Assembly: GCA_026874595.1 (NCBI GenBank)
Contig: CM049309.1
Span: 67,934,926 to 67,998,925 of the forward strand
From: Sipunculus nudus
Lineage: Eukaryota > Annelida > Sipuncula > Golfingiida > Sipunculidae
Reading direction: 5' to 3'
Length of the DNA: 64,000 nucleotides
Under the pieces are notes generated by a model, which saw only the letters and a list, made by a program, of their open reading frames with translations, searched no databases and was not told where the DNA came from. This document shows positions 33,786 to 64,000 of the stretch, piece after piece (the stretch's first letter is position 1; each line of letters starts with the position of its first letter). The translations under genes were made by a program, and so were the position numbers.

Positions 33786-36700
33786 AGCTCAGCTGACTGT
33801 TAGTCAACTGAGGTATAGGAATGGCGCTTTGTCCGTCGTCTGTCTGGCTGTCCGTTAGCAGGGCACAAATCGTAACTGCTGGCCCTAGAAACTTCTAAGT
33901 GAACATCAAGGGAGGTAAATAAAAAATCTCCTTTGAAACTTGAATTTAAGTCACTGAGACCTATATCCTCTGAGCAATTGGGCCTGAAAGTACCCCCCAG
34001 AATAAATAAAAATTTGATACCAAACCTCCAATATCTTGATGATTAATGGATAGATTGTTATGAATCTTGCCTTGAATATTGACCAATACTAGTTTGTATG
34101 TTCCCAAAAAGTGGTGGCGCCACCTGTATTTTTTGTTATTTAACGAATATTTGTATCCGCCAAAACGAAGTTTTGCGGATACTATGTTTTTGACCGGGTT
34201 CCGCCGCCGCTGCCGCCGCCGCCGCCGCGTTCGTTTCCGGAGAACTCCTCTGAGACTACTAGACAGATTTTTCCGAAACTTACACAAATTATCGGGTCAC
34301 ATGTGAACTGGTGCCTAACCAAGTGACCTTGACCTCTGACCTTTCGTCTCTGCCCAGCGTCCGTTTGTGCGTCTGTTTACACACATAAACCCATATATCT
34401 CGGGAACCGTTTGACCGATCCGGAAAATTTTTTTACACAAATGTAGCCCTGGGATAGCTTTATAACATACACAACAAAAGGTGGCGCCACCTGCAACCAT
34501 GTTTGCACAGTGTCCATCTGTTCATCTGCCTGGGGTTAAAATCACTCATATCTCTGCAGTGGTTTGACTAATTCACCTAAAATTTGGCATGCATATACAT
34601 CCTAGATAGCTTTCTCAATTTTATGACAGGTGGCGCCACCTACATTCACGTTAACGCTCCACACATAAACCCATATATCTCGGGAACCGTTTGACCGATC
34701 CGGAAAAATTTTTTACACAAATGTAGCCCTGGGATAGCTTTATAACATACACAACAAAAGGTGGCGCCACCTGCAACCATGTTTGCGCGGTGTCCATTTG
34801 TTCATCTGCCTGGGGTTAAAATCACTCATATCTCTGCAGTGGTTTGACTAATTCACCTAAATATCGGCATGCATATACATCCTAGATAGCTTTCTTGATT
34901 TTATGACAGGTGGCGCCACCTACATTCACGTTAACGCTCCACACATAAACCCATATATCTCGGGAACCGTTTGACCGATCCGGAAAAAAATTGTACACAA
35001 ATGTAGCCCTGGGATAGCTTTATAACATACACAACAAAAGATGGCGCCACCTGCAACCATGTTTGCACAGTGTCCATTTGTTCATCTGCCTGGGGTTAAA
35101 ATCACTCATATCTCTGCAATGGTTTGACTAATTCACCTAAAATTCGGCATGCGTATACATCCTAGATAGCTTCCTTGATTTTATGACAGGTGGCGCCACC
35201 TACATTCATGTTAACGCTGCAGACATCCAAGCTCATATCTCAGGAACCGTTTGACCGATCCGGAAAAAAATTGTACACAAATGTAGCCCTGGGATAGCTT
35301 TATAACATACACAACAAAAGGTGGCGCCACCTGCAACCATGTTTGCACAGCGTCCATCTGTTTGTCTGCTGTGGGATAAAATCACTCATATCTCTGCAGT
35401 GGTTTGACTTTTCCACTTGAAATTTTGCATGTGTATATATCTTGGATAGTTTCTCGTTCAAATAACAGGTGGCGCCACCTACAATCATGTTTATGTGGCA
35501 GAGATCCAATACTAATATTTTACATATGTAACTCTATATCCCCTTGCCACTCAATCCATGCCTCACTTCACCCGTCCTTCTCTGATTTTGGCGGATACAC
35601 GTAGTCGCTTGTCGACTACCCGTATTCTAGTTTTCTATTTTTTTTACTATAAAATGACAACAAACATGTCAGTTTCTCAGCTGTGATAACATCTAATTTC
35701 CCAAACCTGGTTTGTTTATTAATCACAAGTGGATGCCATATAGTAATCACCCTCTCTGTCTGTCTGTTTGTCTAGCTGTCTGTCTGTCCATCCGTCCATC
35801 CACACAGATTTGTTTCCAGATGATAACTCCAGGTTGTATTGACACATGGATTTCAAACTTGACTTACATATGGTCCACCACTAAAACAAGAACCTATATG
35901 ATTTTGGGTTCACAGGATCAAAGGTCATGGTCACAGGACTCACTTATTTAAAAAGATTATGGCTGCCAAGCTTTTCATCCAAAACTTTCCATCTTGCGCA
36001 TTTAGCTGACTTGCCAGTATGGGGAGAGCATAAATAAATTTTGGGTCACAAGGTCAAAGGTCAAGGTCACAGGGGCCATCTGTTCACAAATTAGTTTCCA
36101 GATGGTAACTCCAGTTTAGTTTGACATATTGGTTTAAAACTCAACTTATTTATGCCTCACCACTAAAGTAAGAACCTTGTCAATTGTGGGGTCCAACAGT
36201 CAAAGGTCAGGGTCACAGGACCCATTTATTTAAAAAGAATGCATTTGAAGCCAAACTTTTCATTCCAAACCTGCCATCTTCAAGTTATTGCTGACCTGCC
36301 AATAGGAGAAGATTCTGTTCAATTTTGTGGTCATAGGGTCAAAGGTCAAGGTCACAGGGCTCATCCATTCACAAATTAGTTTATGGATGATAATTCTGCT
36401 TTGGATAGACAGATTAGCTTCAAACTTGATTAAATAATGACCCACCAGTGAAGTAAATTCATTTTGATTTTCAGGGTCCAGAGATCAAAGTTGAAGGTCA
36501 CAGGAGCCACATCTTAAAAAGATTGTGGATGCTCTGTTAATCAAACTTTTCATCTCGAACTTTCAATCTTTCACACATGGCTTACTTACCCAAAGTGAGG
36601 ATATCTGTAGATTTTGAGGTTACCTGGTCAGAGGTCAAGGTCACTTTTTAAAGATTGATACAATAATCTTAATGCTGCAAGTTCAAGGATAATAAGTTCT

Positions 36701-43906: not shown

Positions 43907-43975
43907 TTTGACCTCCAGTGGATGAGCCTGGACTGTGACCCCCACAAACCTGAACGTGACAAGTGTACAGAGCTG
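43907..43975 (+). CDS. Collagen exon (end of NC4/TSPN-like domain)
   Basis: 69 bp (23 codons), phase 0, between TTTTTTCAG and GTAGGA. It encodes FDLQWMSLDCDP HKPERDKCTEL. It parallels [23 protein letters not shown] of collagen IX alpha-1, with both Cys conserved, giving four domain cysteines in all (CPDI, VDC, DCD, KCTEL). The intron before it is the largest in the window at 11.9 kb and is full of repeats. A TIR-bounded MITE-like repeat ends 133 bp upstream of the exon. Confidence 0.93.
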
Positions 43976-45290
43976 GTAGGACAATATATTTTTTATAACA
44001 CTAGACAAAACAAATTCTCAGGGGAAGTTTATAATGTCCATGGTATTTTTATAGATAACTTAACCCCGACTGGTTGAATAAAAAACCACATTAACACTGG
44101 GAGTTGGAGTTTTTTTTGTAATTTTCCGCAATATCTATCGCCTGCTGTCTTAATAACAAAAACAAGAGATGCCACATCCTTTGGTATACACAGTCTAACA
44201 GAGACCAGATGGGGGATTTGATGTTGTACGTGGAAGCTACAGTTTCCTTTGATAGCTGGGTGTTCCCATAGAAGACACCAGGGGAGGTGTGACAGCGGAG
44301 CTTCAGGAGCTTCAGGACAGCACTGAACAGTTGGCCAAAATGGGCTGATGGACAAGAAACACCAGTATATATAAAAAGACGGGAGATTGCTTGCAGCTGA
44401 ATTTCTGGTCAGATGCTCATTTTTGTGGCCCCACAGTATTTGTCCTGGATTAATCGTTATCAGCTGGTAGCTGTGGTAGCGAACAGGATATTTAGGCAGC
44501 TGTGTTGTCTTTTATGTGTTACCATATTTCATTGGAACATGGCTAATTTTACAAGGACTGATCAGTGGAGTTAGAGGGCAGGGTATTTAAAATACTTTAC
44601 TTGTATGAGAAAATAGCAATAGTTTACTTTGACTTCCCAGATGTTGTTTTACTATTAATGCAGGTTATTCTTACAGGGCCATTGGCAATTGTTAGTTTAT
44701 TATTGGTAGTGTATATTTTATGCTGTAAATACAGACATAAGTGTGTTAATTATAATACCAAAGTTGCATGAACTAATCAGTCAAATGCTTTATTTATTAA
44801 ATATTTTTGTATTTCATAATTTGTATATAGTATTTAACATGAGAAATTCCACTCTTTTGGGAAAAGCTTAACAATTTAAATTCATGAAATAATGATTGAG
44901 GATATTTTGGGATTTGAGTTCAAAAAAAGAATTTTTTTATAAGAAGCCCTTTCTAAACTGCTTTAGGTATTTATATAATGAGAATGTAACCTTTTTTATA
45001 TTATATGTCAAGGGTTTGGAACTACTTGTTACATTGAAAAAAGTGTATATGAAACCATAGAATTTTAGAATTGAAATTGAACCATAGAATCGAAAGCACA
45101 AGTAACACTTAACATATTTTACTGTTCCAATTCATAATTGCATATCACGGATGATCACAAGCATACATACTGTCTGTATAGTGCTTTTTTGTGCAGCTGT
45201 GTGCTTGCAGTGCGTCCATTTGTTTGGAGCTTTAGCAAGAACTAGAGTTAGTTTTATATGTGGCTGTTTTCTGCTGCTTATTTTATACAG

Positions 45291-45320
45291 GTGCCACCCC
45301 CGACTAAAGGGCCCAAGACG
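45291..45320 (+). CDS. Candidate 30-bp linker micro-exon
   Basis: Ten codons, VPPPTKGPKT, lie between a good pyrimidine tract ending in TTTTATACAG and a strong donor GTACGT. Phase is 0 on both sides, so inclusion or skipping keeps the frame between the KCTEL exon and the GQEVTGKC exon. Its Pro/Lys-rich product fits a flexible linker between the NC4-like domain and the triple helix; vertebrate collagen IX has a short Pro/Thr-containing linker (PARITPSQTT) at that point. Only the splice borders, phase and position support it. Confidence 0.6.
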
Positions 45321-45691
45321 GTACGTTTTATGAAGACCTAGAACACTTAGTCCCGTTTTCCTGATCAGATGGTTTTAGTTTCCCTTACTCATCAGCACAA
45401 ATTTGCACCCACAAGTCTGCATCCACATCCATTCTCTGCTTCTGCACCAGCGAGTTTCCATGTTGCCAGGAGTAGAGAAAACATGGAAAATGTTTCAGTC
45501 ATTCAGGTTATTGCTACATTGGTCTACAGAATTGGTTTGCAGAATTAACTTAAGCTATTTACATGTTTCAAAATATAAAGAAATCACCAAGCAGCTGAAT
45601 AGTATTCATAGAAATATTGAAGATTTTAACAAGAGCAAATTATTGGCACAGTCATTAAGGGGAGGGACTTCAGAATATTTTCATATTTAAG

Positions 45692-45692
<1 letters not shown>

Positions 45693-45762
<70 letters not shown>
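45693..45762. repeat. (TA)n microsatellite
   Basis: About 70 bp of alternating A/T in the intron after the candidate micro-exon. Confidence 0.97.
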
Positions 45763-45765
<3 letters not shown>

Positions 45766-46072
45766 TTAGAAAAACATATAAAGAAATTTTCAAGTGGAAT
45801 TAAGGAAGGACATTCAGCATATAAATAGAATTTGAATGGCAGAAACATTTTTCTCATGCTGCACAACTAATTCATTCATATCATTGACTTAATACTTTTT
45901 TAGCATAAAGGTAGTCATATTAGACTAAGAGACTAAAAGACCTTATATAGGAGTGACAGTTTTCCCCATCTGCTAATAAGTCAGGCTGATACTTACATAA
46001 AAAATTTCCACTCAAAGGGGCAATCTTCCATATCTACATGTTTTCACTTTCCTATTTCAATATTTGTTCTTC

Positions 46073-46440
46073 TTCAGTCTGTTGTCTCTGTTCACTTCAG
46101 ACATTTTCAAGAATCTTTCTTTTTCTGTTCTTCTTTGGTCTGTTGTCTCTGTTCACTTCAGACATTTTCAAGAATCTTTGTTTTTCTGTTCTTCTTCAGT
46201 CTATTGTCTTTGTTCACTTCGGAAATTTTCAAGAATCTTTCTTTTTTTGTCCTTCTTCATTCAGTTGTCTCTGTCACTTCAGACATTTTCAAGAATCTTT
46301 CTTTTTTCTGTTCTTCTTCAGTCTGTTGTCTCTGTTCACTTCAGACATTTTCAAGAATCTTTCTTTTTTCTGTTCTTCTTCAGTCTGTTGTCTCTGTTCA
46401 CTTCAGACATTTTCAAGAATCTTTCTTTTTCTGTTTCCCC
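46073..46440 (+). repeat. 61-bp pyrimidine-rich satellite, six units, inside a longer T/C-rich block
   Basis: GTTGTCTCTGTTCACTTCAG, ACATTTTCAAGAATCTTTC and TTCTGTTCTTCTTCAG repeat at 46081, 46142, 46203, 46264, 46325 and 46387. The flanking 46.4-47.5 kb is T/C-rich with faint copies (CACTTCAGGATTC, TTCACTTCAGGACCC), so the neat array looks like a recently homogenised part of an older one. Open frames through it are by-products of the repeat. Confidence 0.9.
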
Positions 46441-47560
46441 TGTTTTCATGAGGATTAACACTTCTTCCACCCATATTTTTTATCTCAAAATTCGATTCAA
46501 CTAAAACTGTAATCCCTGTGTTCAGTTCTTCCTGTACCTCTTTCCTGTTTATGTAAGGTTTTTCCTTCTTACATGTCTCTTTATGTCCACGCCTTCTGTT
46601 CTGGAGGTATTCTTCTACATGTGTTACTTTTTCACTTTCTGATCACTTTCTTTTTCATTGAATTCAGAATCTTTTTTTTTACCTACATAGCTTAGCAACC
46701 ATTCTTGATCTTTACCCTTCTAATGTCTCTTCACTTCCATTACATATTTCCAGTTTACTACAGGATTCTTTATTCTCCTTGCATGTCAAATTAGGTTAAT
46801 GATTAATTGCTTGAGCATAAATATATCATCTGTTCCCTATTGATGGAAGTAATCTGAACAACAGGTTTCCCAGGTTGCTTGTTTATTAGCACACCATTTA
46901 GCATGTGTCAACTTTTCCTTTAAGGATTCTTTCTTCCTTTATTTCTTAAATTTACTTTCAGGTTTAATTTTTCTCATCCTCTTGTTTACTGTTTACTTTA
47001 GCTTGCTTCCTTCTGTATTTTGACATGCAACCGAAAAAAATCCCATTTCCTGTCAAATTCTGGAACAATTCCTCTATTTTCCATTTCTCCATATACTCTG
47101 CTTATTCCTCCATTAATTATTGGTTCTTCCATCATCCTCTTGTTTAATGTGTTCTCATGAAGAGTAATTCTTCTTCTTTTTGCATTTATTGCTCAATTCA
47201 GGATTCTTACTTGTCTGTTTTCCCTTTTTTGTTGCATATTTATCAAGGTCCTGTGTTTTGCCTTTAATTTCAGTAGTTTTTCTTTATTCCTCTATTCGTC
47301 ATGTCCCCAGGAGGAGTGTTCTTCTTTCCATCTGTTTGCTGTTCACTTCAGGACCCTTTACCCCTCATTTATTCTGTTCACTTGAAGATTAATATTTCCT
47401 CTCTCTTTGAATCCATTCCACCTCACAGTTGTTTCTTTGTCTGTGTGTTCTTTTTTCATTTGTACATTATTTATTCCAGTACTCTACCTTTTTTTTACCT
47501 CCGAAAAATTTGAAGATTCTTTTGAGTGTATGTGTGCCCTGTTCCTGTAAAACAGTCAGT
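46441..47560. repeat. T/C-rich tract with degenerate satellite remnants
   Basis: About 1.1 kb on the plus strand made mostly of T and C, with short matches to the 61-bp unit such as TTTCACTTTC and CACTTCAGGA. No splice-bordered coding block is seen. Confidence 0.5.
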
Positions 47561-50202
47561 GTGTCCTGCTTCATGTTACCTGTAGCCTAGGGTGATCTGT
47601 TGTGTTTTGTTCTTTGTTTGCTTCCTCTGTTTTGACATATGTTCCTTTGTGTTGTATGTAACACCTGCTGTGATCTTTTTCATATACATCATTCCTGCTT
47701 AAGTCTGATGATTTTGTGTCTTCATTCTATCATGTTTGTGGCTATGCTTTCACAGACCATGATTCAGTGACCAGCTCTGGCATCTATTTCATGAATTAAT
47801 GCACTAGTAAGTCTTATAGTATTCAGGCCAGAGTCACAAGTGCCAATCAGATTCAACAAACCAAAAGGAAACAATACACTGTTCACATGCAGTCTGAACA
47901 AGAACATGTGCCAGAAATGGGCTTATTGGCTTTATTTGATTGATAAGATTCTTGATGCCCTAAGGGCAAGATGTGATCTAAACATTTCACCAGACATAGC
48001 CTGGAACAAGTGTTTACAAGTCATTTGATTGGTTCAGTTGTCTAGTTCATTATTCATGAAATAGATGCCACAGCAGGTCACTGAATCAAGGTCCATGAAA
48101 GCTTAGCCACAGACCTGATAGTATGAAGATGATTATTTTGTTTATATTAATGAGTCATATCCTGATGTTTCAAGAAAACACTAACTTAAATCTGTAAAAT
48201 CTAATTCTTTTCATTACAAATTAATCAGTATTTCAGGACTTTCACTGTTCATAGATATACAGTTTATCACAATATCAGGTTTTTCTGATACCGGAGGCTA
48301 AATGATTCAGTATAGCCTTTGTTTCACTTTGATGAAAAGAATCTTGGTTCCATTCATCTCATGTAAAAATTCCAGATTTTAAATCTGTAAATCCGCTGTA
48401 CAAGCTTTCAAGACATCAGTCACAGTTAGATGAACTTTGCTTGGTCAATATTTTACCATTGTGCCCCTTTTTATGTCTTTTAAATCAACTAGCAATGACA
48501 GTCATGATTTAATCTTATTGCCATTAATCTTCAAGCCATATCTGGTAAGTTACTGAAAAGTTAAATCAATCAGAATATTGTTGAAGTCCTATAATTGATA
48601 TGCTTATTGACAAACGTGTGAGTGCAGCTTAATTCATATATGAATTTTTTTCTTGAGCCTTGCTTGGGGAAAGACATTCTTGTAAAAGAATTATGTACAG
48701 TTGGCATTTGTTTACAGAGTTCACGGGGAGGTGTTCTTTGAGGAAGTTTTTTTCTTAATAATTGGAATAGTAACAGTAAGAAACAAATAATCAGAGTTAT
48801 TATAAAAATTAAAAAATGTCTTTTTTTTCATTATTAATGGCAGTACTTCATCATAAATCATTTTACTTTTGAAGTAACAAGCAAGATAGATGGTATACTG
48901 TAATTTAGCACCAAGCTAAAAACCATTTGCAGGAATGACTTTTCTATAAATGATATGATAGGGTACTACACAGTGTCCATACTGATTAAATCCAGGAAGT
49001 GTTAATGAATTGACTAACTTGCTAAATATGTCTTAAGTATGTCCTTTGTAGCTTGTTATTTATACATGACCAACTAGATTGTGTGTATAAGAACCACTCC
49101 TTCCATGCAGCCAATCATTTTGATGCTACTGAATAAGAAAATGTCACTGTTTGAAAAACCCTTGATTTTTATTAAATGTTTACAAACACAAAAAGTATGT
49201 ACTTTGACCCATAGCCACTTAGCCACAAGTATGGCAAAACAATCTCTGTAAGTGTCTGCACATAGCAACAGAATGGAGCCTAAGTGTGGTAGGGTGATTT
49301 CAGGTAAGATGCATGTAGTTCAGAAAGTTCCTGCTTTAGATGCAGCGTGATGCACAATGACATAAAAAGAATGTCATTTATGCTTTATAAATATAAAATA
49401 CAAAAAGTGATTCATATGATTTCACTATATATGAATTCCTGCTGCCTTGTGCATTATTTCTTAATTTACATATTTTTGGCAGTTGTGGACAGTTATCTGT
49501 AGTCAAAACTAGATCAACATACAGACCAGTTAGTTTTACACAAAATTTACAGTATATATTGCTAAAAAAATTAAATAATATAACAATTCACTCCACAGTA
49601 ATATAGTAGGCATATTTTGAAGATTTCACAGAAGGTAAAGGGCCATTAGTTATAATCTTGGAATGTTGGTTAAATTTTATGAATATTCAAATTTCATTTT
49701 TTTTTATTTTCTCAGTATGTTTATTGAAAATATAATTATTTGTTTAACAAAAATACATTCTGCTGTCTGCTTTAGCTTATTTATGTTTTGCTTTAATGTG
49801 CTGTTTATGTGTGTTTTGAATACTCAAATGCAGTGTGTCTTTTTCTCACATTATTCTTGAAGTAATTTAGCTATAAGTCAGTTTATGAACAAATTACAAA
49901 GGTCATGAAACAGTCTATTTGAATAGGCTGATACATTTTTATCACATAGTTATGGAATATAGGTAATATCCAGTTGTATATTAATTTGTTGCAAATATAC
50001 TGCTTCAGTGAAAACTATTTCTTAAGTTTATTAACATAATGTTTAAATACAAATGGTCATATAATTTATTGTGATTCATCATTATTTTCCATATACAGAG
50101 AATATATTTGAAACAAGAACAATATAGTTTGTTGAATATTTATGAGATGAATGCTGTTTTAATAATATTTTTCAGTGTTTTGTGTATTTTTTTTCACTGT
50201 AG
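47561..50202. other. Intron, nothing recognised
   Basis: AT-rich intron before the Cys-hinge exon; no repeat ends or coding blocks seen. Confidence 0.5.
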
Positions 50203-50271
50203 GGACAGGAAGTGACTGGCAAATGCACCATTGCCTGCCCCCCAGGTGCCCCTGGTCTCAATGGAACCCAG
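50203..50271 (+). CDS. Collagen exon (Cys hinge entering the triple helix)
   Basis: 69 bp (23 codons), phase 0, between TTTTTCACTGTAG and GTCAGA. It encodes GQEVTGKCTIAC then PPGAPGLNGTQ. The pair of cysteines three residues apart followed by PPG resembles CPNACPPG, a hinge I recall from collagen IX alpha-1, where such cysteines make interchain disulfides. The Gly-X-Y repeat starts with GAPGLNGTQ. The intron before it spans about 4.9 kb and contains a TA microsatellite and a pyrimidine-rich satellite. Confidence 0.88.
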
Positions 50272-50746
50272 GTCAGACTGGCCCATGATTTATATATTTT
50301 AAACTTGTATTTCCATTATTTATTTAAAATCTAATATCTAACAAATTTTTAATCTAAAAGACTAAAAAATGTGTGTACCATATCATATTTTTTTGTTAAA
50401 TGTAGATCTATAAGGATATAAAGATATTGTGATATGATAATATAGTTCTTTTAGTTTGAAAAACTGACACTAGGTGGCAGTTAAGTGTATATACTTCAGA
50501 GGGTTTTTTCCACAATCCACAGAATCAGACTCACAAGAATATGACTCTGCTAGTCAGGGTTAGTGGGCTTTGAAATCTATGGCCCACAATGCAGCGGGGC
50601 TTCTACATATACAGGGTGTAATTTCTTGTAATTTTCTTCACTACCATCGAGGAACATAGGTAATATTCAGGCTACTTCACCTGTTCTCCTGTAGACTAGA
50701 TGATGAAGGACTATATGAATAAATGTGTACTATGTTTATTCTGTAG

Positions 50747-50854
50747 GGACCACGTGGACCTAGAGGACCAGCTGGTCCTCAAGGTCTTAAAGGAGAAACA
50801 GGACCCAGAGGAAAAGATGGAGGGCCAGGTCCTAGAGGTCCTGAGGGAAAACTT
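50747..50854 (+). CDS. Collagen triple-helix exon, 108 bp
   Basis: 36 codons, phase 0, between TTTATTCTGTAG and GTGAGT. It is twelve uninterrupted Gly-X-Y triplets starting GPRGPRGPAGPQGLKGETG and ending GPEGKL. 108 bp is exactly two 54-bp collagen exon units, a classic exon size in fibrillar and FACIT collagen genes, which suggests an old fusion of two units. It is rich in Arg/Lys and includes KGE, a charged triplet common in stable helices. Confidence 0.95.
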
Positions 50855-51589
50855 GTGAGTATCTAATAAGCAGTAAAAATTCATTCGTTTTGACAGTCTA
50901 TATACAGTAGTACCTTGTTATATAACCCAAACAACTGTCACCAAGCATTGCTCTTTACTGCTCCCCACATGAAACAATTACCTCTGTCACTTTAGGCTTG
51001 ATTGAATCAATGTTTTACCGTATGATGTGAAATATGGGGAGGAGGAAGTGAAATATGGGGAGGAGATGAATGTAATGATATAGAGAGAGTACAAACTAAA
51101 TTTTGCAAGTTTCTGCTTAACCTGAATTCATCAGCACCAAATGCTGCTGTCTTGGGTGAATGTGGAAGACTTCCAGTTAAATTTTATTGTACATACTTAT
51201 GTCATGCAAAAATGTCTATGCTTTGAATAACTTGGCAATGTATATACACCACTCTTTCAGAAAAAGAGACCTGTATATTAACCAAGGATTAGGGTAACAC
51301 TGTGCTGATATATGGAAAACACTTGCTCAAGCTTAAAACTGAAACAATCTAGCTTTGAATGGTTACATGCACAAATCACTATCCAATAACAAGAACTCCA
51401 TACTGAAAAATTATTATTGTAAAACATACTTCTGGTGACATATATTCACATTTATTCATTGTATGTTTCCTACATTTATAATGTAGTAGATTTGCTTTAC
51501 AAATAAGCTACCTATTTTTGGGCTGTTATATAATAATCCTGGAGTCTCATGTTTCTTATTTACTTCATTAGTGGTTAGAGATAAATGGA

Positions 51590-52145
51590 GTTGATACACT
51601 TATCTCATTATAAATGGAAGCACTTACATTACCTAGCAGTTGCAGAGTGTGTTGATAAAATGTCATATGTCATTGTAAAGAGTTCATTAATTGTTTTCAG
51701 TAGGCGTAACAATGTTGTTTTCATTTACTGGTGTATTGTAAGTCTTACACACAGACATACGAACTGTTGGAATTTATTATTTTTTTTATTCGTTTTGAGA
51801 CAATCTGTTATTTAAAATTGTAATATTAGTTGATTTATAATGCATGTGTATCACTAAAATTAAGATAAAGTCTAGTTGATACACTTATCTGATGGTAGAT
51901 GGCAGCACTTACACTGCCTTGCGATTTCAGCGTCTTAGTTTGTATTGTGCCCTCTTCATGTGTGCAAGCTAAGCGTTCATTGTTATCCAGGACATGTTAT
52001 AATGTTGTTCATTTATTCATATATGTAAGCCTTACACACATATTTGCAAACTGTTGGAATATTTTTCAAATTATTTTTATTTATTACCTTTTTGTACCAA
52101 TTTGTTTCAGTTGATTTTTAACGCATGTGCATCGCCAAGGTTAAG
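51590..52145 (+). repeat. Diverged tandem duplication, ~280 bp unit, two copies
   Basis: GTTGATACACTTATCT, GGAAGCACTTACA/GGCAGCACTTACA, AACAATGTTGTT, TAAGTCTTACACACA, GAACTGTTGGAAT and GCATGTGTATCACTAA recur in the same order in 51590-51872 and 51873-52145. The identity is about 70%. It fills much of the intron before the GPPGARG exon and is not coding. Confidence 0.75.
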
Positions 52146-52281
52146 CACCACAAATTATCATGGAAAGTGATGTTATGTTGATTATATGGTTCTATGGGCC
52201 AGAGGCCTTTATACTTGAATAAACTATTTATTATTTTTATATTATTATTATTATTTCTTACCATAATCATCTTGATTTCAG

Positions 52282-52335
52282 GGACCTCCTGGAGCACGGG
52301 GACCTGTTGGACCACCTGGAAATCCAGGAATACCA
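52282..52335 (+). CDS. Collagen triple-helix exon, 54 bp
   Basis: 18 codons, phase 0, between TTGATTTCAG and GTAAGA: GPPGARGPVGPPGNPGIP, six perfect Gly-X-Y triplets. Pro at Y positions is a likely prolyl-4-hydroxylase target. The exon sits 140 bp after a diverged 280-bp tandem duplication in the preceding intron. Confidence 0.95.
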
Positions 52336-52822
52336 GTAAGAATATGCTTGGTTACCTGTAATGCTTTTATAACAGTCAAATAAAAAATGGGCCAATATTC
52401 ATACATTGTAATGTTGTGAAACATCACCAATAATATCAACCATGGCTTTCAATTGATCTTCATTAAAAATATGATTATTGTGTATGTAGTTTAGAGAATA
52501 ATATTCTCCAAAGCAATGTTTCTTCTGTTACAGGTGAAGGTATATTTTAAGGCAGGTAACACTTCGTCAGAATATGTGCAGCAGTTACAATTGGCACATT
52601 TGATACATATTGATACATTAGAACCACAGATTGTTAATGTGAATAATATACAGGACAAAGTCGAAAAAAAAATCCCCAAGCGTCTAAATTATGTGTCATG
52701 CTGCTCCTGTTATTATCAACAGTGAAGTTGTGTGTGACCCCTACAATCAGTCTTATTCTATATTATGTCTTAAGTTGCCTTCATGTTAAAAAACATAATT
52801 GACTATGGCCCAAAAAAAAAAA

Positions 52823-53140
52823 AGGTTTGGTTCTCAGGCACTTTTTTCAGAAATCAGTGTGCGAGGGCATTTTTTTTTTTTTGGTATGTTCAATAAAGAT
52901 GTCATATGATTAGGGATAAGCATTAGAATAACATAATTGTTTTGCTAACACAGGTAAAATCACTACATTACAAAGGAAATCTAATCTAAATTGTATTATT
53001 TTATCTTCTTGAAAGATATGTCCGAGCAGTTGGAGGTCAAAATTGGTAAGATTCTATTGAAAATCAAAATCAGAATTTTTTTTTTTTGGGGGGGGGGGGA
53101 GGTAATAAATTGATGCACGCGGTGCTTGAGAACCTTACCT
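52823..53140. mobile_element. 318-bp MITE-like element with 19-bp inverted ends
   Basis: Left end AGGTTTGGTTCTCAGGCAC (52823-52841) and right end GTGCTTGAGAACCTTACCT (53122-53140) are inverted repeats with 3 mismatches in 19. The inside is AT-rich with T and G runs and has no reading frame. It lies in the intron between two 54-bp collagen exons. No target duplication is obvious because the left flank is poly-A. Family unknown to me. Confidence 0.7.
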
Positions 53141-53374
53141 CTCTTTTCTTGGCCTAGTATTGTTCATTTTGCTTGATTTTATGCCAAATGTTTATTTAAT
53201 ATTGGCAAATAAGTCTTTTTATGAAGAGTTACCTACCTAAATGTTGACCTCACATGAAAATAATGAGCAGTTGATGGATAACAAACTTGAACAGGATGTT
53301 ACATATGTAGACTAGTACAAGCTATTGGCTGTTATATTAACCTCACATTTAATCAATGCACCTTTACCTTTCAG

Positions 53375-53428
53375 GGCCTCCAAGGAGTGGATGGTCCACC
53401 AGGACCTGCTGGTGCCCCTGGAGTACCT
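53375..53428 (+). CDS. Collagen triple-helix exon, 54 bp
   Basis: 18 codons, phase 0, between TTACCTTTCAG and GTGAGT: GLQGVDGPPGPAGAPGVP, six perfect triplets. It follows an intron that carries a 318-bp MITE-like inverted-end element. Confidence 0.94.
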
Positions 53429-53879
53429 GTGAGTTCACAAATATGAGTGCAGTTCCAAATATGGCCTCCAGGGGTCACTATCTCACAAATTGAGCAATTG
53501 CCACTCCCTTTTGGTGTATCACTGAGAAACCAAAATTGATTAAATGTGATATTGTGTTAAATATTGTCAATGGATGTATAACTTAACATCATAGCAGATG
53601 GCGACTGGGGGTGGGGTGGGAAGTAGCAAATTAAAGATACAGTACTGTAAATTTGAAAAAAAAGTTAAAATAGGTCTTATGACCAACTGAATACATATGT
53701 ATACTGATGCATAGAAAGTATCTGTTGTTTGTGTGAATTTAGCTTTCCACACCACTAAATTTAATATTATTATTGGCAAATATCTTAAAAGGGTCAAAGA
53801 TGTGTCCACTTACCAGCAATTTAAAAGACCATTTTCCTTTTTGCTAGTTAACATTTATTTTTGATAATATGTTTTACAG

Positions 53880-53930
53880 GCTCAGCCTCTTCCGGGTAAA
53901 AAAGGTGAACCCGGCCCAGCAGGAGTGAAG
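53880..53930 (+). CDS. Collagen triple-helix exon, 51 bp, with interruption
   Basis: 17 codons, phase 0, between TATGTTTTACAG and GTTACC: AQPLPGKKGEPGPAGVK. The first five residues (AQPLP) lack Gly and break the repeat; four triplets follow. The length is one codon short of 54 bp. Short interruptions of this sort are normal in FACIT collagens and act as bends. The donor AAG|GTTACC is weaker than its neighbours. Confidence 0.85.
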
Positions 53931-54278
53931 GTTACCTTTTTATTTCCTCTATAACTGAAGAGTCAAGCCGCTACTAGATCAACCACATCAAATAATCTTA
54001 TAAAAAATTTTTAATGAGGTTTTTCTAAAAATGAAATGTCATATTCTAATGTTTGCTTTCATTCTGATCTAACAGGTAAAATCTGCTATTTTTTTCACGC
54101 TATCATTAATTCAAAATTTTTTAACAATCCATAAGTCTGTTTACTATTGTATATAAGTAATTTTTCATTAAAATATACATTTGCAAATGTAATTGTTTAT
54201 TTTTCCCGATTAAACAAAGTGAGACATTTTTAGTTTTGTTCAAGCTGAAGTTTTACTGTTTCTTTCATTGCCCACCAG

Positions 54279-54341
54279 GGAGAACAAGGTGATCCTGGAA
54301 AACCAGGACCTGCAGGACCCACTGGAAAACCTGGAAAGTCT
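54279..54341 (+). CDS. Collagen triple-helix exon, 63 bp, at the edge of a minisatellite
   Basis: 21 codons, phase 0, after TTGCCCACCAG: GEQGDPGKPGPAGPTGKPGKS, seven triplets. The donor is TCT|GTAGGT. The last 11-12 bases of the exon (codons for P-G-K-S) and its donor form the first copy of a 56-bp repeat that continues for about 1.4 kb. Splicing at the first donor keeps the frame; reading on meets a TAA within about 25 bases. An alternative GT four bases on (TCTGTAG|GTACCA) would break the frame with the next exon. Confidence 0.87.
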
Positions 54342-55790
54342 GTAGGTACCACCCTGTTACTGCATTAAGTATTAAATAAAAAAACCCTGGAAAGTCTGTA
54401 GGTACCACCCTGTTACTGCATTAAGTATTAAATAAAAAAACTTCGGAAAGTCTGTAGGTACCACCCTGTTACTGCATTAAGTATTAATATTAAAAAACCT
54501 GGAAAGTCTGTAGGTACCACCCTGTTACTGCATTAAGTATTAATATAAAAAAACCTGGAAAGTCTGTAGGTACCACCCTGTTACTGCATTAAGTATTAAT
54601 ATTAAAAAACCTGGAAAGTCTGTAGGTACCACCCTGTTACTGCATTAAGTATTAAATAAAAAAACCCTGGAAAGTCTGTAGGTACCACCCTTTTACTGCA
54701 TTAAGTATTAAATAAAAAAAACCCGGAAAGTCTGTAGGTACCACCCTGTTACTGCATTAAGTATTAATATTAAAAAACCTGGAAAGTCTGTAGGTACCAC
54801 CCTGTTACTGCATTAAGTATTAAATAAAAAAAACCTGGAAAGTCTGTAGGTACCACCCTTTTACTGCATTAAGTATTAAATAAAAAAACCCCGGAAAGTC
54901 TGTAGGTACCACCCTGTTACTGCATTAAGTATTAAATAAAAAAACCCTGGAAAGTCTGTAGGTACCACCCTGTTACTGCATTAAGTATTAATATTAAAAA
55001 ACCTGGAAAGTCTGTAGGTACCACCCTGTTACTGCATTAAGTATTAAATAAAAAAACCCTGGAAAGTCTGTAGGTACCACCCTGTTACTGCATTAAGTAT
55101 TAATATTAAAAAACCTGGAAAGTCTGTAGGTACCACCCTGTTACTGCATTAAGTATTAAATAAAAAAAACCTGGAAAGTCTGTAGGTACCACCCTTTTAC
55201 TGCATTAAGTATTAAATAAAAAAAAAACCCGGAAAGTCTGTAGGTACCACCCTGTTACTGCATTAAGTAATAATATTAAAAAACCTGGAAAGTCTGTAGG
55301 TACCACCCTGTTACTGCATTAAGTATTAAATAAAAAAACCCTGGAAAGTCTGAAGGTACCACCCTGTTACTGCATTAAGTATTAATATTAAAAAACCTGT
55401 AAAGTCTGTAGGTACCACCCTGTTACTGCATTAAGTATTAAATAAAAAAAACCTGGAAAGTCTGTAGGTACCACCCTTTTACTGCATTAAGTATTAAATA
55501 AAAAAAAAAACGGAAAGTCTGTAGGTACCACCCTGTTACTGCATTAAGTATTAAATAAAAAAACCCTGGAAAGTCTGTAGGTACCACCCTGTTACTGCAT
55601 TAAGTATTAATATTAAAAAACCTGGAAAGTCTGTACATACCACCCTGTAACTGCATTAAGTATTAATATAAAAAAACCTTGAAAGTCTGTAGGTACCACC
55701 CTGTTACTGCATTAAGTATTAATATTAAAAAACCTGGAAAGTCTGTACGTACCTCCCTGTTACTGCATTAAGTATTAATATAAATTAAAC
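54330..55790 (+). repeat. 56-bp minisatellite containing a collagen exon end and 5' splice site, about 26 copies
   Basis: The motif GGAAAGTCTGTAGGTACC recurs every 56 bp (for example at 54333, 54389, 54445, 54501, 54557, 54613 and last near 55736). Each unit holds the exon tail (CCTGGAAAGTCT), the donor GTAGGTACC, then a linker with CCCTGTTACTGCATTAAG and an A-rich end. Two linker types (AAATAAAAAAA and ATATTAAAAAA) and a CCCTTTTACT variant recur in blocks, pointing to higher-order duplication. Units are over 90% alike by eye, so the array is young or homogenised. The last few units carry altered donors (GTACATACC, GTACGTACC). Confidence 0.97.
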
Positions 55791-56378
55791 CTTAATGCAT
55801 GTTATTTCCATATAAAATATTTTAAATATTCTGGTGAAAGGATTTGAAATGTAGACATGTAAATTTAGTCCTGCTTATTCCTGGACAGTGAAGTTTAATT
55901 ATAAGCTCTGCGATGAATTATTATTGTCTATGCCAAGGGACAATTTTGAGACTGTTATAGCATTTGCTGAAAATGTCGAAGGTAATGTCACATAATCTTA
56001 TCTAGTTAAAATTCTTCTTATAATCTATTCCACAATTGGTGGGGTGACCATCAGTTTTCATGGGTACTTTTTACAAAGAGAGTGCTTTTGAGAGATTCCA
56101 TCCCATTGAATGAATCAGGTCCTCAGGCGGTTAAATACAGTTTATTTATATCTCTTTAATTCTGAAGGACTTGGCAGAGAACCAGAGGACCCACAAAAAT
56201 TCCTCAGTTGTGATCAGTGGTGTAGTTTTCAAGTTAGATGTGTTGGTTAAGGTTTGATCTATTACTTATAAGTGGCTTTTATTATACTTGAATTTTTGGT
56301 GGCAAAACAATGGATGTTCAATGTGTTTGAAAAATTTATATCAGTAAGATCATTATTATGTCAAATATGTGCTTAAAG
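55791..56378. other. Intron after the minisatellite
   Basis: Ordinary AT-rich intron from the end of the 56-bp array to the VKGEKG exon. Confidence 0.6.
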
Positions 56379-56438
56379 GTTAAAGGAGAGAAGGGAGACC
56401 CAGGAGCAACAGGAGTTCCAGGGGCTGACGGAATACAG
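56379..56438 (+). CDS. Collagen triple-helix exon, 60 bp
   Basis: 20 codons, phase 0, between ATGTGCTTAAAG and GTGATA: VKGEKGDPGATGVPGADGIQ. The first two residues (VK) precede six Gly-X-Y triplets, so the junction with the previous exon is a small interruption (GKS-VK-GEK). The acceptor pyrimidine tract is poor, so the true start could differ by a few bases, but the frame is fixed by the donor and by the following phase-0 exon. Confidence 0.85.
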
Positions 56439-57210
56439 GTGATAATTTAAATATTCTCTGTTCCAACACCACACCTGTTCCTGTCCACATAATCTTTTTT
56501 CACAATATTACTTTCAAATTTATTTTGTTTGCTACAAAATATAAGCTTTCATGAAAGGAGGTTATGTGGTGATTTTTGATAATTTAAATAAGTTTGATAT
56601 ATATATATATTTAATTTGTGATACCTGGATAGCATTGACCTGTCATGAAAGAGCTGTAAAAACTATATTGTCATTTCAAAGGCCATATCTGTATATCATT
56701 TCAGATGACCATATCTGTATATATCATTGAAATGTAGGAGGGACATATTGGTGACATAACAAAAGTGTTCCATACAAATACCATTGTGTTGTCATCACTA
56801 TAAATCATCAAATCTGTCCAGTTCAAGATTGTCAGCTTAGCTCATCACTGAAACATTGCAAGACCATATATATCTTCAGTCAAATTCCTTTTTAAGTTAA
56901 TAATAAGGAATTAATACAGGAGAGTATTATTTTGCTCATAGATACTTTTGTCTGATTGAAAGTAAGCTTTAGTGCATTAGAAAAAATTACCACACAAACC
57001 AGGTGGACAAGGGTAAAGGAATAGTTGTTACACATTTATTTTATTCAATTTTTTAATCATTTTATTTATATCATTAGAATGTAGATTTCATCTGTTGGGT
57101 GGCTCGCTTGTAACAGCAAATTTTTAATGATAAATATGATATATCTACTCAAGTTTAAGGATTGAGATATGCTTTGAATATTAAATTGCTCGTCCTGTTA
57201 TACTCTCCAG

Positions 57211-57264
57211 GGACCCCCAGGTATTCAGGGTCCAGAGGGGCAGCCTGGTCCAAGGGGAGATAAG
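57211..57264 (+). CDS. Collagen triple-helix exon, 54 bp
   Basis: 18 codons, phase 0, between TACTCTCCAG and the consensus donor AAG|GTAAGT: GPPGIQGPEGQPGPRGDK. Six perfect triplets ending in GDK. Confidence 0.95.
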
Positions 57265-57875
57265 GTAAGTCTAACTTAGATACTTTAGTACCCTTTCAAC
57301 ACTTAAGATTTAATTGTATAAGTAATTTCATCAGACATATTAACTTATGTGTGAACACTTTATTCTGACATGACTGATAATCAGTGTAAAAAAAAAAAAA
57401 AATCTATGAAACAGCTGATAATCTGACATTTGATGTTTAACTGACAACCCTCAGCACTAATCTGACAACTCTGATGGTGAAGAATTCTTTTTGTTCACAT
57501 GTTAAAATATATAGATGGGTTTATCTATAGTACTCAGCTTTAAGACATTTTTATTTCATGTAGGAGTTCCTTTGAATATTACTTAAATTATGACTTAGTA
57601 CATTACTTCTTAACATTATTATTGAAATAGGTACATTTACTAAACATTGTCTTTTGATTAATTAATGTTAACAATGCCTGCTTGATTTTGAGGTATTTTT
57701 GCATTGTGTCATTTTCCATCTTTTTATCAGCTGTAAATTTATTTGTTGTGTCTTAAGTTAACCATGTGTTGTCACCTCAAATGTTACCCTTTCTGTATTT
57801 TCTACCTTACTTAACATGGACTGTGCGACTCAGTTGGAAAAATATGTTTAAATTCATGTTTCTCTATTACTTCAG

Positions 57876-57929
57876 GGAAGCATTGGAGACATTGGAAGAA
57901 CAGGGAAGAGGGGTTACAAAGGAGATAAA
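57876..57929 (+). CDS. Collagen triple-helix exon, 54 bp
   Basis: 18 codons, phase 0, between TATTACTTCAG and GTGAGA: GSIGDIGRTGKRGYKGDK. Six perfect triplets, proline-free and highly charged (GRT GKR GYK GDK), which should form a locally less stable, basic helix segment; GYKGDK offers a Lys at Y for hydroxylation and cross-linking. Confidence 0.93.
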
Positions 57930-58327
57930 GTGAGAGAATTTAATTACAATTGCGGACATACCAATAATTTGTTACAACAGTTATAAGTACTAATTTCAAA
58001 TAAAATACTGCTAAATGAAGAGTGCCATTTAATTGAATCCTTTACTGTTTGAATTTCCTAACTTTGTGAACTCCATTTTTTCACATTTTTTTATCCTTGA
58101 TAAATAAAACCACATTAGTATTACAGTAGAGCATTGATTTTCTGAATCATATGCTTGTTTAATCAATATATCATTTAATACATCAAAATTATTGTTAAAT
58201 ATACCTGGAAAATCAGAATCCATTAGTATTGTAGCAAATTCATATCATGCTGTAAACTAGAGCTTGGACCAGGAACTCAGAATTAAAGTAAAAAGGTTTT
58301 TATTTTTCAGAAAAACACTGTTCAGAT

Positions 58328-58553
58328 CAGGCGCGGGTCATGGATTTTTTGCAGGGAGGGGTCAGTGGGTGTCATGCATAAAAAATTGTAAAAAAAAAAA
58401 AAGGTTCTTGGTCGACAGCAGGGGAGGTCATGACCCCCAAAACCCCCCCATCATGCATAAGATTTGTCTTAAAAAAGGTCATTGATTGAGGGGGGGTGAC
58501 CCCCAAACCCCCCCCCCCCTCTGGGGGGTCACCCCCCTCTGGATCTGTGCCTG
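58328..58553 (+). mobile_element. MITE with CAGGGGCGGATCCAGG-type ends, copy 4
   Basis: Ends CAGGCGCGGGTCATGG and CTGGATCTGTGCCTG are imperfect inverted repeats. Inside, GGGAGGTCATGACCCCCAAA and GGGGGGTGACCCCCAAACCC are direct-repeat blocks. 226 bp, directly upstream of family B copy 3. Confidence 0.6.
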
Positions 58554-58579
58554 GTTTATATAAATGATGCTCTTATAAA

Positions 58580-59466
58580 CAAAGTTTTGCGGATACTATA
58601 TTTTTGACCTGGTTCCGCTGCGGCAGCATTTGTTTCCAGAATAGAACTCTGAGACCAATGGACAGATTTTTCTGAAACTTTACATGTTTATCGGGTCACA
58701 TGTGAACAGGTGCCAAAATATTTTGCGTTGACCTCAGACCTTTCCTCTCTCGAGTGCATCCATCTGTGCATCCGTCTGTTTTGACACCAGTAACCCACAT
58801 ATCTTCGGACTCGTTTGACCAATCAGGAAAACAATTTTCCACAAATTTAGCCCTTCGATAGCTTTATAACATACATAAGAAATGGTGGTGCAACAATTTT
58901 TGCACAGCATCCATCTGTTCATCTGCCTTGGGATAAAGTCACTCATATCTCTGAAGTGAATGGACTTACCTGCCTAAAATTTTGCATGTATATACATCTT
59001 GGATAGCTTTCTTGTTTTTGTCGCAGGGGGTGCCACCTACTTTCACATTCAGGCTGCAGACATCCAGGCTTATATCTTAGGACTGGTTTGACGTATACTC
59101 CTGAAATTTAGCAAGTGTATAGATCTTACATAGCTCTTTTATCATACACAAAACTGGTGGCGCCACTTGCAACCATTTTTGCACAGTGTCCATCTATTTG
59201 TCTGCTGTGGGATAAATTCACTCATATCTTGGCAGTGGTTTGACTTATCTGCCTAAGATTTTGCAGTTGTATACAACTTGGATAACTTTCTGGATTTTGT
59301 GGCAGGTGGTGCCACCTACATTCACATTTTGGCTGCAGACATCCATGCTAATATGCATCACATCTCTCTCTATTTCTCCTTGCCACTCAATCCATGCCTC
59401 ACTGCACCCGTCCTACTCTGGTTTCGGCGGATACACATAGTCGCTTGTTGACTACCCATACTCTAG
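58580..59466 (+). mobile_element. Helentron-like element, family B, copy 3 (5' end lost)
   Basis: Starts at AAAGTTTTGCGGATAC, missing the first GTATCCGCC arm, and ends GGCGGATAC, GTAGTCG-like hairpin, CTCTAG before TTTG. It holds about two 280-bp units, more diverged than the other copies (palindromes partly decayed to GGTGGTGCCACC). It lies in the intron before the last collagen exon and starts 27 bp after a MITE-like element, so that intron has at least two independent insertions. Confidence 0.78.
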
Positions 59467-59592
59467 TTTGTTATATAAATTGTGAATAGAGAATTAGCCA
59501 TATGTGTTAAATGTAATTGAAAACTCATTCCTATGGTGATATATAAAATCAGTAGTATGTTATGGTAATTCATTGTCAATTTTTATTTGTAG

Positions 59593-59655
59593 GGAGACAC
59601 AGGTGCAACTGGTGAGAAGGGTTTACCTGGACAGCCAGGAATCCCTGGAGAACGG
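59593..59655 (+). CDS. Collagen triple-helix exon, 63 bp (last in window)
   Basis: 21 codons, phase 0, between TTATTTGTAG and GTAGGA: GDTGATGEKGLPGQPGIPGER. Seven perfect triplets. No further Gly-X-Y exon is seen up to 64000; the following 4.3 kb is an intron filled by repeats, and the gene must continue beyond the window. Confidence 0.94.
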
Positions 59656-60284: not shown

Positions 60285-63200
60285 AGCTCAGCTGACTGAA
60301 AGTCATCTGAGCTATAGCGATCACTCTTTGTCCGTCGTCCGTCTGTCCGTCTGTCTGTCTGTCCGTCTGTCCGTCTGTCCGTCCGTTAACCAGGCACAAA
60401 TCGTAACCGCTGGACCTAGAACCTTGTAACTTGGGATTCTGAGAGGTCCATAAAAAATCTCCTTGGAAACCAGAAATTAGGTCTCTGTTACCCATATCCT
60501 TTGAGCTATGTGGCCCCAAAGTACCCCCCAGAAAAGTCAAAAATTTCATACAAAAACTTCAATACCTCAATAACTACCTCACTGATGGTCATGATTTTTG
60601 GCATACATATTGATCATGAGATGTTACATCACTTCCTGCAGACTGGTGGCGCCACCTGTATTTTTCGATTTTTTACGAATTTTTTTCTCTATTTTTGAGA
60701 CCTTTAAAAATGTGAACATCTGTTAACAAGGCACAAATCATTGAGACTGGACTTAGAATCTTAATTCTTGACACACTCAGAGGTCCATGAAAAATCTCCT
60801 TGGAAACCAGAAATTAGGTCTCTGTTACTCATATCCTTCAAGCTATGGGGCCCCAAAGTACCCCCCAGAAAAGTCAAAAATTTCATACAAAAACTTCAAT
60901 ACCTCAATAACTACCTCACTGATGGTCATGATTTTTGGCATACATATTGATCATGAGATGTTTCATCAGTTTCTGCAGACTGGTGGTGCCACCTGTATTT
61001 TTCAGTTTTTATGAAATTTTTCTCTATTTTTGAGACCTTTAAAGATATGAACATCTGTTAACAGGGCACAAATCATAAAAACTGGACCAAGAATCTTCAT
61101 TCTTGACACACAGGGAGACCCATGAAAAGTCTCCATGGAAACCTGAAATTAGGTCTCTGTTACCCATATTCTTTAAATTGTTTGGCTCCAAAATACCCCC
61201 CCCCCCAGAATAATGGAAAATTTCATACAAAAACTGCAGTATCTCAATAACTACAACACTGATGGTCATGATTTTCGGCATACATATTGATCATGAGCTG
61301 TTCCATCAGTTTCTGCAGACTGGGTGCGCCACCTCTATTTTTTTTCAAATTTTTACGAATTTTTTCTCTTTTTTTGAGACCTTTAAAGATGTGGTTATCT
61401 GTCAACAGGGTACAAATCGCAACAACTGGACCTAGAATCTTCATTCTTGTCATGCAAGGAGGCCCATGAAAAGTGCCTGTGGAAACTTGAAATTAGGTCT
61501 CTGTTACCCATATCCTTCAAGCTATAGGACTCCTAAGTATCCCTCAGAATAATGGACAATTTGATACAAAAGCTGAAGTATCTGAACAACTAATGGGGAG
61601 ATCACCATGATTCTTTGCATAGATATTGACCATTAAGTGTTTTTATTAGTTTCTGCAGACTGGTGGAGCCACCTGTATTTTTGTATCCGCCAAAACGAAG
61701 TTACTATGTTTTTGACCTGGTTCCTCCGCCGCCGCCGCGTTCGTTTCCAGAGAGCTCCTCGGAAACTAATGGACCGATTTTTCCGAAACTTACACCAATT
61801 ATTGGGTCACATGTGAACTGGTGCCTAACCAATTTGTGTTGACCTCTGACCTTTCCTCTCTATCCAGTGTCCATTTGTGGGTCTGTTTCCACTCATAAAC
61901 CCTCATATCTCGGGAACCGTTTGACCGATCAGGAAATAAAATTTATACAAACGTAGCCCTTGGATTGCTTTATAACATACACAAAAAATGGTGGCGCCAC
62001 CTGTAACCATGTTTGCACAGTGTCCATCTGTTCATCTGCCTTGTGTTAAAATCACTCATATCTCTGCAGTGAATTGACTAATTCACCTGAAATTTGTCAT
62101 GCGTATACATCCTGGATAGCTGTCTTGATTTTATGACAGGTGGGGCCACCTACATTCACTTTAAAGCTGATGACATCCAAGCTCATATCTTGGGAACCGT
62201 TTGACCGATCAGGAAATAAAATTTATACAAATATAATCCTTGGATTGCTTTATAACATACACAGAAAATGATGGCGCCACCTGTAACCATGTTTGCACAG
62301 TGTCCATCTGTTCATCTGCCTTGGGTTAAAATCACTCATATCTCTGCAGTGAATTGACTAATTCACCTGAAATTCGTCATGCGTATACATCCTGGATATT
62401 TCTCTTGATTTTATGACAGGTGGCGCCACCTACATTCACGTTCACGCTGATGACATCCAAGCTCATATCTTGGGAACCGTTTGACCGATCAGGAAATAAA
62501 ATTTATGCAAAAGTAGCCCTTTGATAGCTCTGTAACATACACAAAAATGGTGGCGCCACCTGTAACCATGTTTGCACAGTGTCCATCTGTTCATCTGCTT
62601 TGGGTTAAAATCACTCATATCTCTGCAGTGAATTGACTAATTCACCTGAATTTTGTCATGCATATACATCCTGGATAGCTTTCTTGATTTTATGACAGGG
62701 GGCACCACCTACATTTACTTTCACGCTGATGACATCCAAGCTCATATCTCGGGAACCGTTTGACCGATCAGGAAATAAAATTTAGCATGTGTATAGATCT
62801 CACATAGCTCTTTATCATACGCAAAACTGGTGGCGCCACCTGCAACCATTTTTGCACAGCGTCTGTCTGTTCATCTGCCTTGTGTTAAAATCACTCATAT
62901 CTCTGCAGTGAATTGACTAATTCACCTGAAATTCGTCATGCGTATACATCCTGGATAGCTGTCTTGATTTTATGACAGGTGGTGCCACCTACATTCACTT
63001 TAACGCTGATGACATCCAAGCTCATATCTTGGGAACCGTTTGACCGATCAGGAAATAAAATTTATACAAATATAATCCTTGGATTGCTTTATAACATACA
63101 CAAAAAATGGTGGCGCCACCTGTAACCATGTTTGCACAGTGTCCATCTGTTCATCTGCCTTGGGTTAAAATCACTCATATCTCTGCAGTGAATTGACTAA

Positions 63201-64000
63201 TTCACCTGAAATTTGTCATGCATATACATCCTGGATAGCTTTCTTGATTTTATGACAGGGGGCACCACCTACATTTACATTCACGCTGATGACATCCAAG
63301 CTCATATCTCGGGAACCGTTTGACCGATCAGGAAATAAAATTTAGCATGTGTATAGATCTCACATAGCTCTTTATCATATGCAAAACTGGTGGCGCCACC
63401 TGCAACCATTTTTGCACAGCGTCTGTCTGTTAGTCTGCCGTGGCCTAAAATCACTCATTTCTCTGCAGTGGTTCGACATAACTGCCTAAAATGTTGCAGG
63501 TTTATACATCGTGGACAGCTTTCTTGATTTATGACAGGTGGCGCCACCTACATTCTAGTTAACGCTGCACACATCCAAGCTCATATCTCAGGAACCATTT
63601 GACCGATTGGGCCAAAATTGTGCATGTGTTTAGATCTCACATAGGTCTTTATCATACACAAATCTGGAGGGGTCACCTGCAAAGATTTTTGCACAGTGTT
63701 TGTCTGTTTGTCTGTCATGGGCAAAATTCGTTCATATACATGTAGTTGTTTGACTTTTCTGCCTAAAATTTTGCAGGTGTTTACAACTTGGACAGCTTTC
63801 TGGATTTGTGGTAGGTGGCACAACCTACATACACATTTAGGCTGCAGACATCCATGCTAATATGCAACATACCTCACTCTATTTCCCCTTGCCACTCAAT
63901 CCATGCCTCACTTCACCCATTCCACTCTGATTTTGGCGGATACATGTAGTCACTTGTCGGTTACCCGTATTCTAGTTTTTAAAGTTTACACATTTTTTCT
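60285..64000 (+). mobile_element. Helentron-like element, family A, copy 3, interrupted by family B
   Basis: Begins AGCTCAGCTGACT, then GAA, then AGTCATCTGAGCT: a near-perfect 13-bp hairpin (one mismatch), the best preserved 5' end of this family here. A GTCCGTCTG run follows, then four tandem units of about 337 bp (anchor GTACCCCCCAG at 60521, 60858, 61193 and, decayed, 61537). Family B copy 4 (61683-63975) interrupts it. The 3' end is beyond the window. Confidence 0.65.
61683..63975 (+). mobile_element. Helentron-like element, family B, copy 4, longest array
   Basis: Starts GTATCCGCCAAAACGAAG, with a shortened 5' hairpin, and ends GGCGGATACATGTAG, CCGTATTCTAG before TTTTT. It carries about seven 280-bp dimer units (CTCATATCTCGGGAACCG near 61902, 62181, 62460, 62741, 63020, 63301, 63580), each with two palindrome sites. 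2293 bp. Adjacent units are more alike than units of other copies, suggesting local array expansion. Confidence 0.82.

Follow-up and report, generated by a model that had tools for sequence, protein, structure and literature searches.

Does a splice donor that has been copied many times into its own intron act on the splicing of its exon, or is it carried along by the repeat that contains it? The question arises in a 64,000-nucleotide stretch of DNA from Sipunculus nudus (the window), where a tandem repeat overlaps a predicted exon-intron boundary of a collagen gene. A sequence-only reading of the locus had proposed that a 56-bp unit is present in about 26 copies, that unit 1 holds the last codons of a collagen exon together with their donor, that the 25 later units copy both, and that only the first donor avoids a stop codon. 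It left the gene three options: to favour the first donor, to tolerate decoys or to use the copies to tune its output.

Results

A putative collagen-IX-alpha-1-like gene

Eleven G-X-Y runs of at least four triplets were found in six frames. The nine on the plus strand (50747-59655) were taken as exons together with their splice sites and the two on the minus strand were dropped; a minus-strand entry inside a collagen exon was taken for chance. With a further exon at 50203-50271 the set comes to ten, which, when joined, matched Pfam Collagen with E 1.2e-31. When translated frames were searched (three plus and three minus for 49-64 kb, three plus and one minus for 34-49 kb), Pfam returned Collagen alone, in one frame and below the cut-off (E 2.2e-4). 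Rfam gave no match over the whole window at the gathering threshold, and the 22-bp core of the repeat gave none among viral contigs.

The sole PDB match up to E 10 for the predicted exon 43907-43975 was 2uur_A, a chain representing the NC4 domain of collagen alpha-1(IX) (E 4.6e-4), and a whole-frame PDB search over 15 kb returned the same chain as its single match (E 0.38). A second NC4 exon was not found on the plus strand of 34-49 kb (PDB sequences, three frames with 1, 0 and 0 matches up to E 1). We provisionally call the gene collagen-IX-alpha-1-like, all of its exons being predicted (Table 1). In type IX collagen a collagen domain is expected between NC4 and the position of the exon with CTIACPPG; the interval between these two exons here (43976-50202) holds no G-X-Y run of at least four triplets, so the expected domain may be missing or lie in short exons. 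Further downstream, the 51-nt collagen exon 53880-53930 starts with AQPLP, a G-X-Y interruption, and its donor AAG/GTTACC (the slash marks the splice point throughout) is weaker and also predicted to be mostly paired.

Table 1. Predicted features of the locus, with positions counted from the first base of the window.
Feature	Position	Strand	Remarks
Upstream exon FDLQWMSLDCDPHKPERDKCTEL	43907..43975	+	Predicted; related to collagen alpha-1(IX) NC4 domain; PDB match 2uur_A
Collagen exon GQEVTGKCTIACPPGAPGLNGTQ	50203..50271	+	Predicted; phase 0; cysteine motif; donor at 50272
Collagen exon GEQGDPGKPGPAGPTGKPGKS	54279..54341	+	Predicted; 63 nt, phase 0; last 16 nt are part of repeat unit 1
Exonic ACCTGCAG, stem of predicted donor-burying hairpin	54308..54315	+	8/8 complementary (one G-U) to CTGTAGGT, 54340-54347
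56-bp minisatellite, 26 units	54326..55792	+	TRF and unit split; unit 1 straddles exon-intron boundary
Candidate donor D1 of unit 1, TCT/GTAGGT	54342..54347	+	Phase 0, exon ending at 54341; percentile 83.2 among 3605 GTs
Candidate donor D2 of unit 1, TAG/GTACCA	54346..54351	+	Exon end 54345, phase 1; overlaps D1; 76.9 percentile of 3605 GTs
Units 2-26	54391..55793	+	Counted from AAAGTCTG anchor; GTCTGTAGGTACC kept in 22/25; units 19, 24 and 26 altered
Next collagen exon VKGEKGDPGATGVPGADGIQ	56379..56438	+	Weak acceptor 56379; alternative 56386

A 56-bp minisatellite across the exon boundary

Analysis of the 64-kb window with TRF revealed one array of period 56 at the boundary, with 26.1 copies and 93% matches, and splitting it at AAAGTCTG yielded 26 units, so that the copy number read earlier from the letters is borne out. 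Units are 56 bp long in 24 cases, with one of 58 bp and one of 57 bp; the length of unit 26 is our setting and is not given by the split. The array thus consists of head-to-tail copies of one unit within the size range of minisatellites (about 10-100 bp), and the sequence contains no Ns. It starts at 54326, upstream of the predicted exon end at 54341 or 54345, and the coding part copied in the repeat is AAAACCTGGAAAGTCT, which confirms that unit 1 comprises the 3' end of the collagen exon and a donor. The proposal that all 25 later units copy both holds in full for the 22 that carry the whole donor stretch; in units 19, 24 and 26 this stretch is altered.

The 13-mer GTCTGTAGGTACC is intact in 23 of the 26 units, the three exceptions (units 19, 24 and 26) being changed within it. 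Allowing up to two mismatches, it matches at 27 places in the 64 kb, against an expectation of 0.74, and 26 of these fall within the array; none of 100 shuffles reached 27. The first 41 bases of the units are nearly invariant, with 7 distinct changes over all 26, and the linker after this core is variable (12 forms in 26 units). A CCCTTTTACT variant occurs in units 7, 10, 16 and 21 (4/26), the palindrome GGTACC in 24 of 26 units, and a juxtaposed AG/GT, TCTGTAG/GTACC (TCTGTAGGTACC), 23 times. The order of unit types is non-random, as had been described: words of two, three and four types were repeated equally often in only 22, 27 and 19 of 5000 shuffles, respectively. The types recur in blocks more than in the shuffles, in keeping with duplications that each took in several units.

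The near-identity of the units suggests that the array is young, although exchange between units could yield the same. AAACCT is found in the exon end at 54327 and again at the far edge of the array (55787), which would fit an initial slippage event between two short repeats separated by 56 or 57 bp and, equally, a final copy that is incomplete. The window is rich in tandem arrays, of which eleven with a period of at least 15 make up 9029 of 64,000 bases (TRF, our non-overlapping selection). An array beginning on an exon edge requires no special cause. Two of the window's arrays, at 34380-35491 and 61902-63863, about 26 kb apart, have a similar 280-bp unit (CTCGGGAACCGTTTGACCGATC) and are likely to represent a dispersed satellite family. 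In the interval that separates the NC4-like exon (43907) from the next exon found (50203), a 61-bp minisatellite of about 6 copies (46065-46435) carries a series of strong acceptor-like sites, TTCTTCTTCAG/T and TTCACTTCAG/A, whose ad hoc scores reach the 99.8 percentile of AGs; it forms an acceptor-like ladder, the opposite of the 56-bp donor ladder.

Donors, acceptors and reading frame

On the ad hoc score, the acceptor of the exon at the array's edge (tttctttcattgcccaccag/GGAG) reaches the 99.8th percentile among 3310 AGs. The two overlapping candidate donors of this exon are both weak: D1 and D2 lie at the 83rd and 77th percentiles of 3605 GTs, lower than any of the gene's ten other donors (at least 96 for nine, 86 for 53931), on a human matrix which, like the ad hoc acceptor scores, is good for ranking only. 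Unit 1 contains a third GT, AAA/GTCTGT at 54338 (78.9 percentile). Better-scoring sites exist elsewhere in the array intron, for instance the donor AAG/GTAATG at 55982 and an acceptor at 55889. The intron ends weakly as well, with acceptors 56379 and 56386 at the 62.1 and 50.5 percentiles of AGs; 56379 scores worst among the 11 exon acceptors, of which the remaining ten reach at least the 88.4 percentile (ad hoc score in each case). Exon 56379-56438 has an odd start: a G-first exon, as most in the gene are, would begin at 56385, and no AG precedes this position, so that the acceptor seemingly lies 6 nt upstream or 1 nt downstream. No missed exon was detected in the array intron as a G-X-Y run of at least four triplets.

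Reading frames were followed for two donor registers per unit (GTAGGT and GTACC) over 26 units. D1 fits acceptor 56379, and D2, of the two acceptors tried (56379 and 56386), fits 56386 only; both products carry a small G-X-Y interruption. An in-frame stop precedes every donor checked except those of unit 1 (54341 and 54345), the donors of units 2-26 being read after the TAA of unit 1. The claim that only the first donor avoids a stop thus stands as regards all later donors checked, and is to be amended in that unit 1 holds two overlapping candidates. Skipping of the 63-nt exon would be frame-neutral.

Predicted RNA structure at the first donor

Because exonic ACCTGCAG is complementary to CTGTAGGT, the donor of unit 1 has a low predicted openness. 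Its 88-nt junction folds at -33.3 kcal/mol, with z -3.65 (1/200 shuffles) and z -3.68 (1/300 shuffles) in two sets; a control stretch of 60 nt at the unit 2 donor gave z 0.34. This is the most significant fold among the 11 junctions tested, none of the gene's ten other donors having z below -1.83 (the runner-up is 59656, with 13/300 shuffles as stable), and the 1/300 corresponds to about 0.04 after correction for 11 junctions, for an effect that was spotted post hoc. In 88-nt windows, opening the unit 1 donor costs 9.49 kcal/mol, compared with 4.74-6.81 for the 22 other intact copies and 0.01-5.59 for the ten other donors; its unpaired probability is 0.05, that of the 22 copies 0.23-0.33. The fold was predicted without proteins. 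On this model, a hairpin formed by exon and intron would enclose the unit 1 donor, and the copied donors seem more readily usable than the genuine one.

Several controls temper this picture. Donor 53931 is as rarely unpaired as unit 1 (0.05 and 0.04 versus 0.05), although its opening cost is lower (3.48 and 2.4). With 150-nt flanks the gap shrinks, to 8.51 for unit 1, 4.31-5.08 for five copies and 0.9-6.5 for eight other donors. Protein-preserving recoding of the exon (last 5 codons kept) left the donor at least as closed in 10 of 300 cases, and triplet reordering (last 6 codons kept) in 15 of 300. Given these results, the predicted masking of the unit 1 donor is unusual, yet not extreme. Copy number had no effect on predicted access to this donor: its mean unpaired probability stayed at 0.046-0.048 with 1, 2, 3, 5, 8, 13 and 26 units and pairing spans of 100 and 200.

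No sign of purifying selection on the donor hexamer was seen across the 41-base cores of the 26 units. GTAGGT occupies 6 of the 41 columns and holds 3 of the 7 distinct changes (P(>=3) 0.069), or 2 of 6 when two adjacent changes are counted as one (P 0.21). The hexamer has thus changed no less than its surroundings, which does not indicate the preservation that retention for U1 binding would predict; so few core changes cannot exclude weak selection on the donors.

Discussion

From the observed array, units and stops and the computed fold, we infer the following origin, age, donor use, leak and decay, and put the probability of this reading at roughly 60%. A short tandem duplication over the 3' edge of the exon would have started the array, which would then have been enlarged by multi-unit steps into a young minisatellite, unit 1 still serving as coding exon end and donor. 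The other donors would be passengers of this duplication and, in the pre-mRNA, near-equal decoys. Productive splicing would proceed via unit 1, from 54341 to 56379 or from 54345 to 56386. Because the unit 1 donor is weak and the predicted hairpin would hold it shut, next to copies that appear more open, there is probably a leak, in which a fraction of transcripts would splice from one of the later units, acquire a stop and be removed by nonsense-mediated decay. Exon definition favours short exons, and hence unit 1 or the first few units, which counts against the leak. Among the three options offered by the sequence-only reading, favouring of the first donor loses ground, since the predicted structure points the other way, with unit 1 buried and the copies more open. 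Tuning of output by the copies found no support: the hexamer is not preferentially kept, and accessibility of unit 1 is unchanged at 7 copy numbers.

The structure could nevertheless be read as a splice dial, in which exonic ACCUGCAG masks the first donor, U1 binds the open copies instead and transcripts are led into exons that contain a stop; collagen output would then depend on hairpin opening and copy number. The 8/8 complementarity, the top-ranking fold among 11 junctions and the in-frame stop ahead of every later donor checked all suit this explanation, which we still consider unlikely given the flat accessibility of unit 1 from 1 to 26 units and the lack of preferential retention of the donor hexamer. 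Slightly more doubtful still is its extension to a donor ladder with a masked first rung, where 22 more-open intact copies would compete for U1 and an expandable minisatellite would set the dose of the collagen chain allele by allele. That the array is an assembly artefact, or that the exon goes unused, is improbable: weak scores at both ends of the intron and the frame-neutral skipping of the exon would agree with it, but the differences between units are ordered and non-random, unlike those of a duplicated read, the exon has an open frame and a strong acceptor, and there are no Ns.

Two further roles for the copies would involve the intron itself. As most units carry AG/GT (TCTGTAG/GTACC), stepwise removal of the intron is conceivable, with a donor regenerated at each ratchet point. 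The 23 occurrences of this juxtaposition, the in-frame pairing of D2 with acceptor 56386 and the fact that acceptors inside the array score about as low as the true next acceptor speak for such recursive splicing. Against it, a ratchet point joins a strong acceptor to a donor, and the 23 TGTAG acceptors have ad hoc scores in the 30-63 percentile range of AGs and no pyrimidine tract; moreover, the intron is just about 2 kb long, whereas ratchet points are described in PMC8605326 as abundant in long introns. We regard recursive splicing as very improbable here, the likeness to those ratchet points being the juxtaposed AG/GT and the difference the short intron without a strong acceptor part. Alternatively, a possible U1 site and an AATAAA or ATTAAA in most units could form a module for premature polyadenylation, at which transcripts may end when U1 is scarce. 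One of the two hexamers occurs in 24 of 26 units, with densities on the plus strand of 9.5 (AATAAA) and 16.4 (ATTAAA) per kb in the array versus 1.2 and 0.6 elsewhere; AT-rich linkers yield such hexamers cheaply, however, and one founder unit accounts for all copies, so we give this role little credence. Passenger donors in a young minisatellite remain our preferred reading.

Parallels exist among repeats linked to splicing. Zhuo et al. are said to have reported intron gain by tandem duplication in 2007. Passages of PMC4974935 give examples of introns arising by tandem duplication of an AGGT segment, for which Hellsten et al. 2011 is cited there, and describe 24-bp AGGT copies that recur within genes of fission yeast, where an intron spans four or two of them. 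The likeness to our locus lies in tandem copies carrying AG/GT, here TCTGTAGGTACC 23 times, with a weak acceptor part where those introns use AG/GT as both acceptor and donor; the array described here differs in lying at an exon edge, in an intron whose separate downstream acceptor is outside it, and is known from sequence alone. In human duplicated genes, variable internal tandem repeats, which are minisatellites on exon-intron boundaries, can create alternative splicing (PMC2812944). Common to both is a tandem repeat on an exon-intron boundary, which is predicted in our case; those repeats average 4 units of 30 bp, compared with 26 units of 56 bp here, where the donor side alone is copied. 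The intronic 38-bp repeat VNTR6-1 of TERT is linked to TERT splicing in passages of PMC11830802, which place it about 3.5 kb from exon 7, say that it forms a G-quadruplex and do not present it as a copied splice site, in contrast to the copied donor of the collagen gene. Among the matches listed from the open-licence literature (titles and abstract openings), no comparable donor amplification was seen. On our model, the locus belongs with these known boundary and intronic repeats, and what sets it apart is the long one-sided donor ladder with a first donor that is predicted to be buried.

The choice of the spliceosome among many near-identical donors has mostly been studied in built constructs. 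At this locus, 23 donor stretches of identical sequence follow one another naturally in steps of about 56 bp, and because each step alters the length of the exon and all but the first bring in a stop, the outcome of splicing would be readable by ordinary RNA-seq. The copy number of a minisatellite could also be linked here to the dose of a structural protein.
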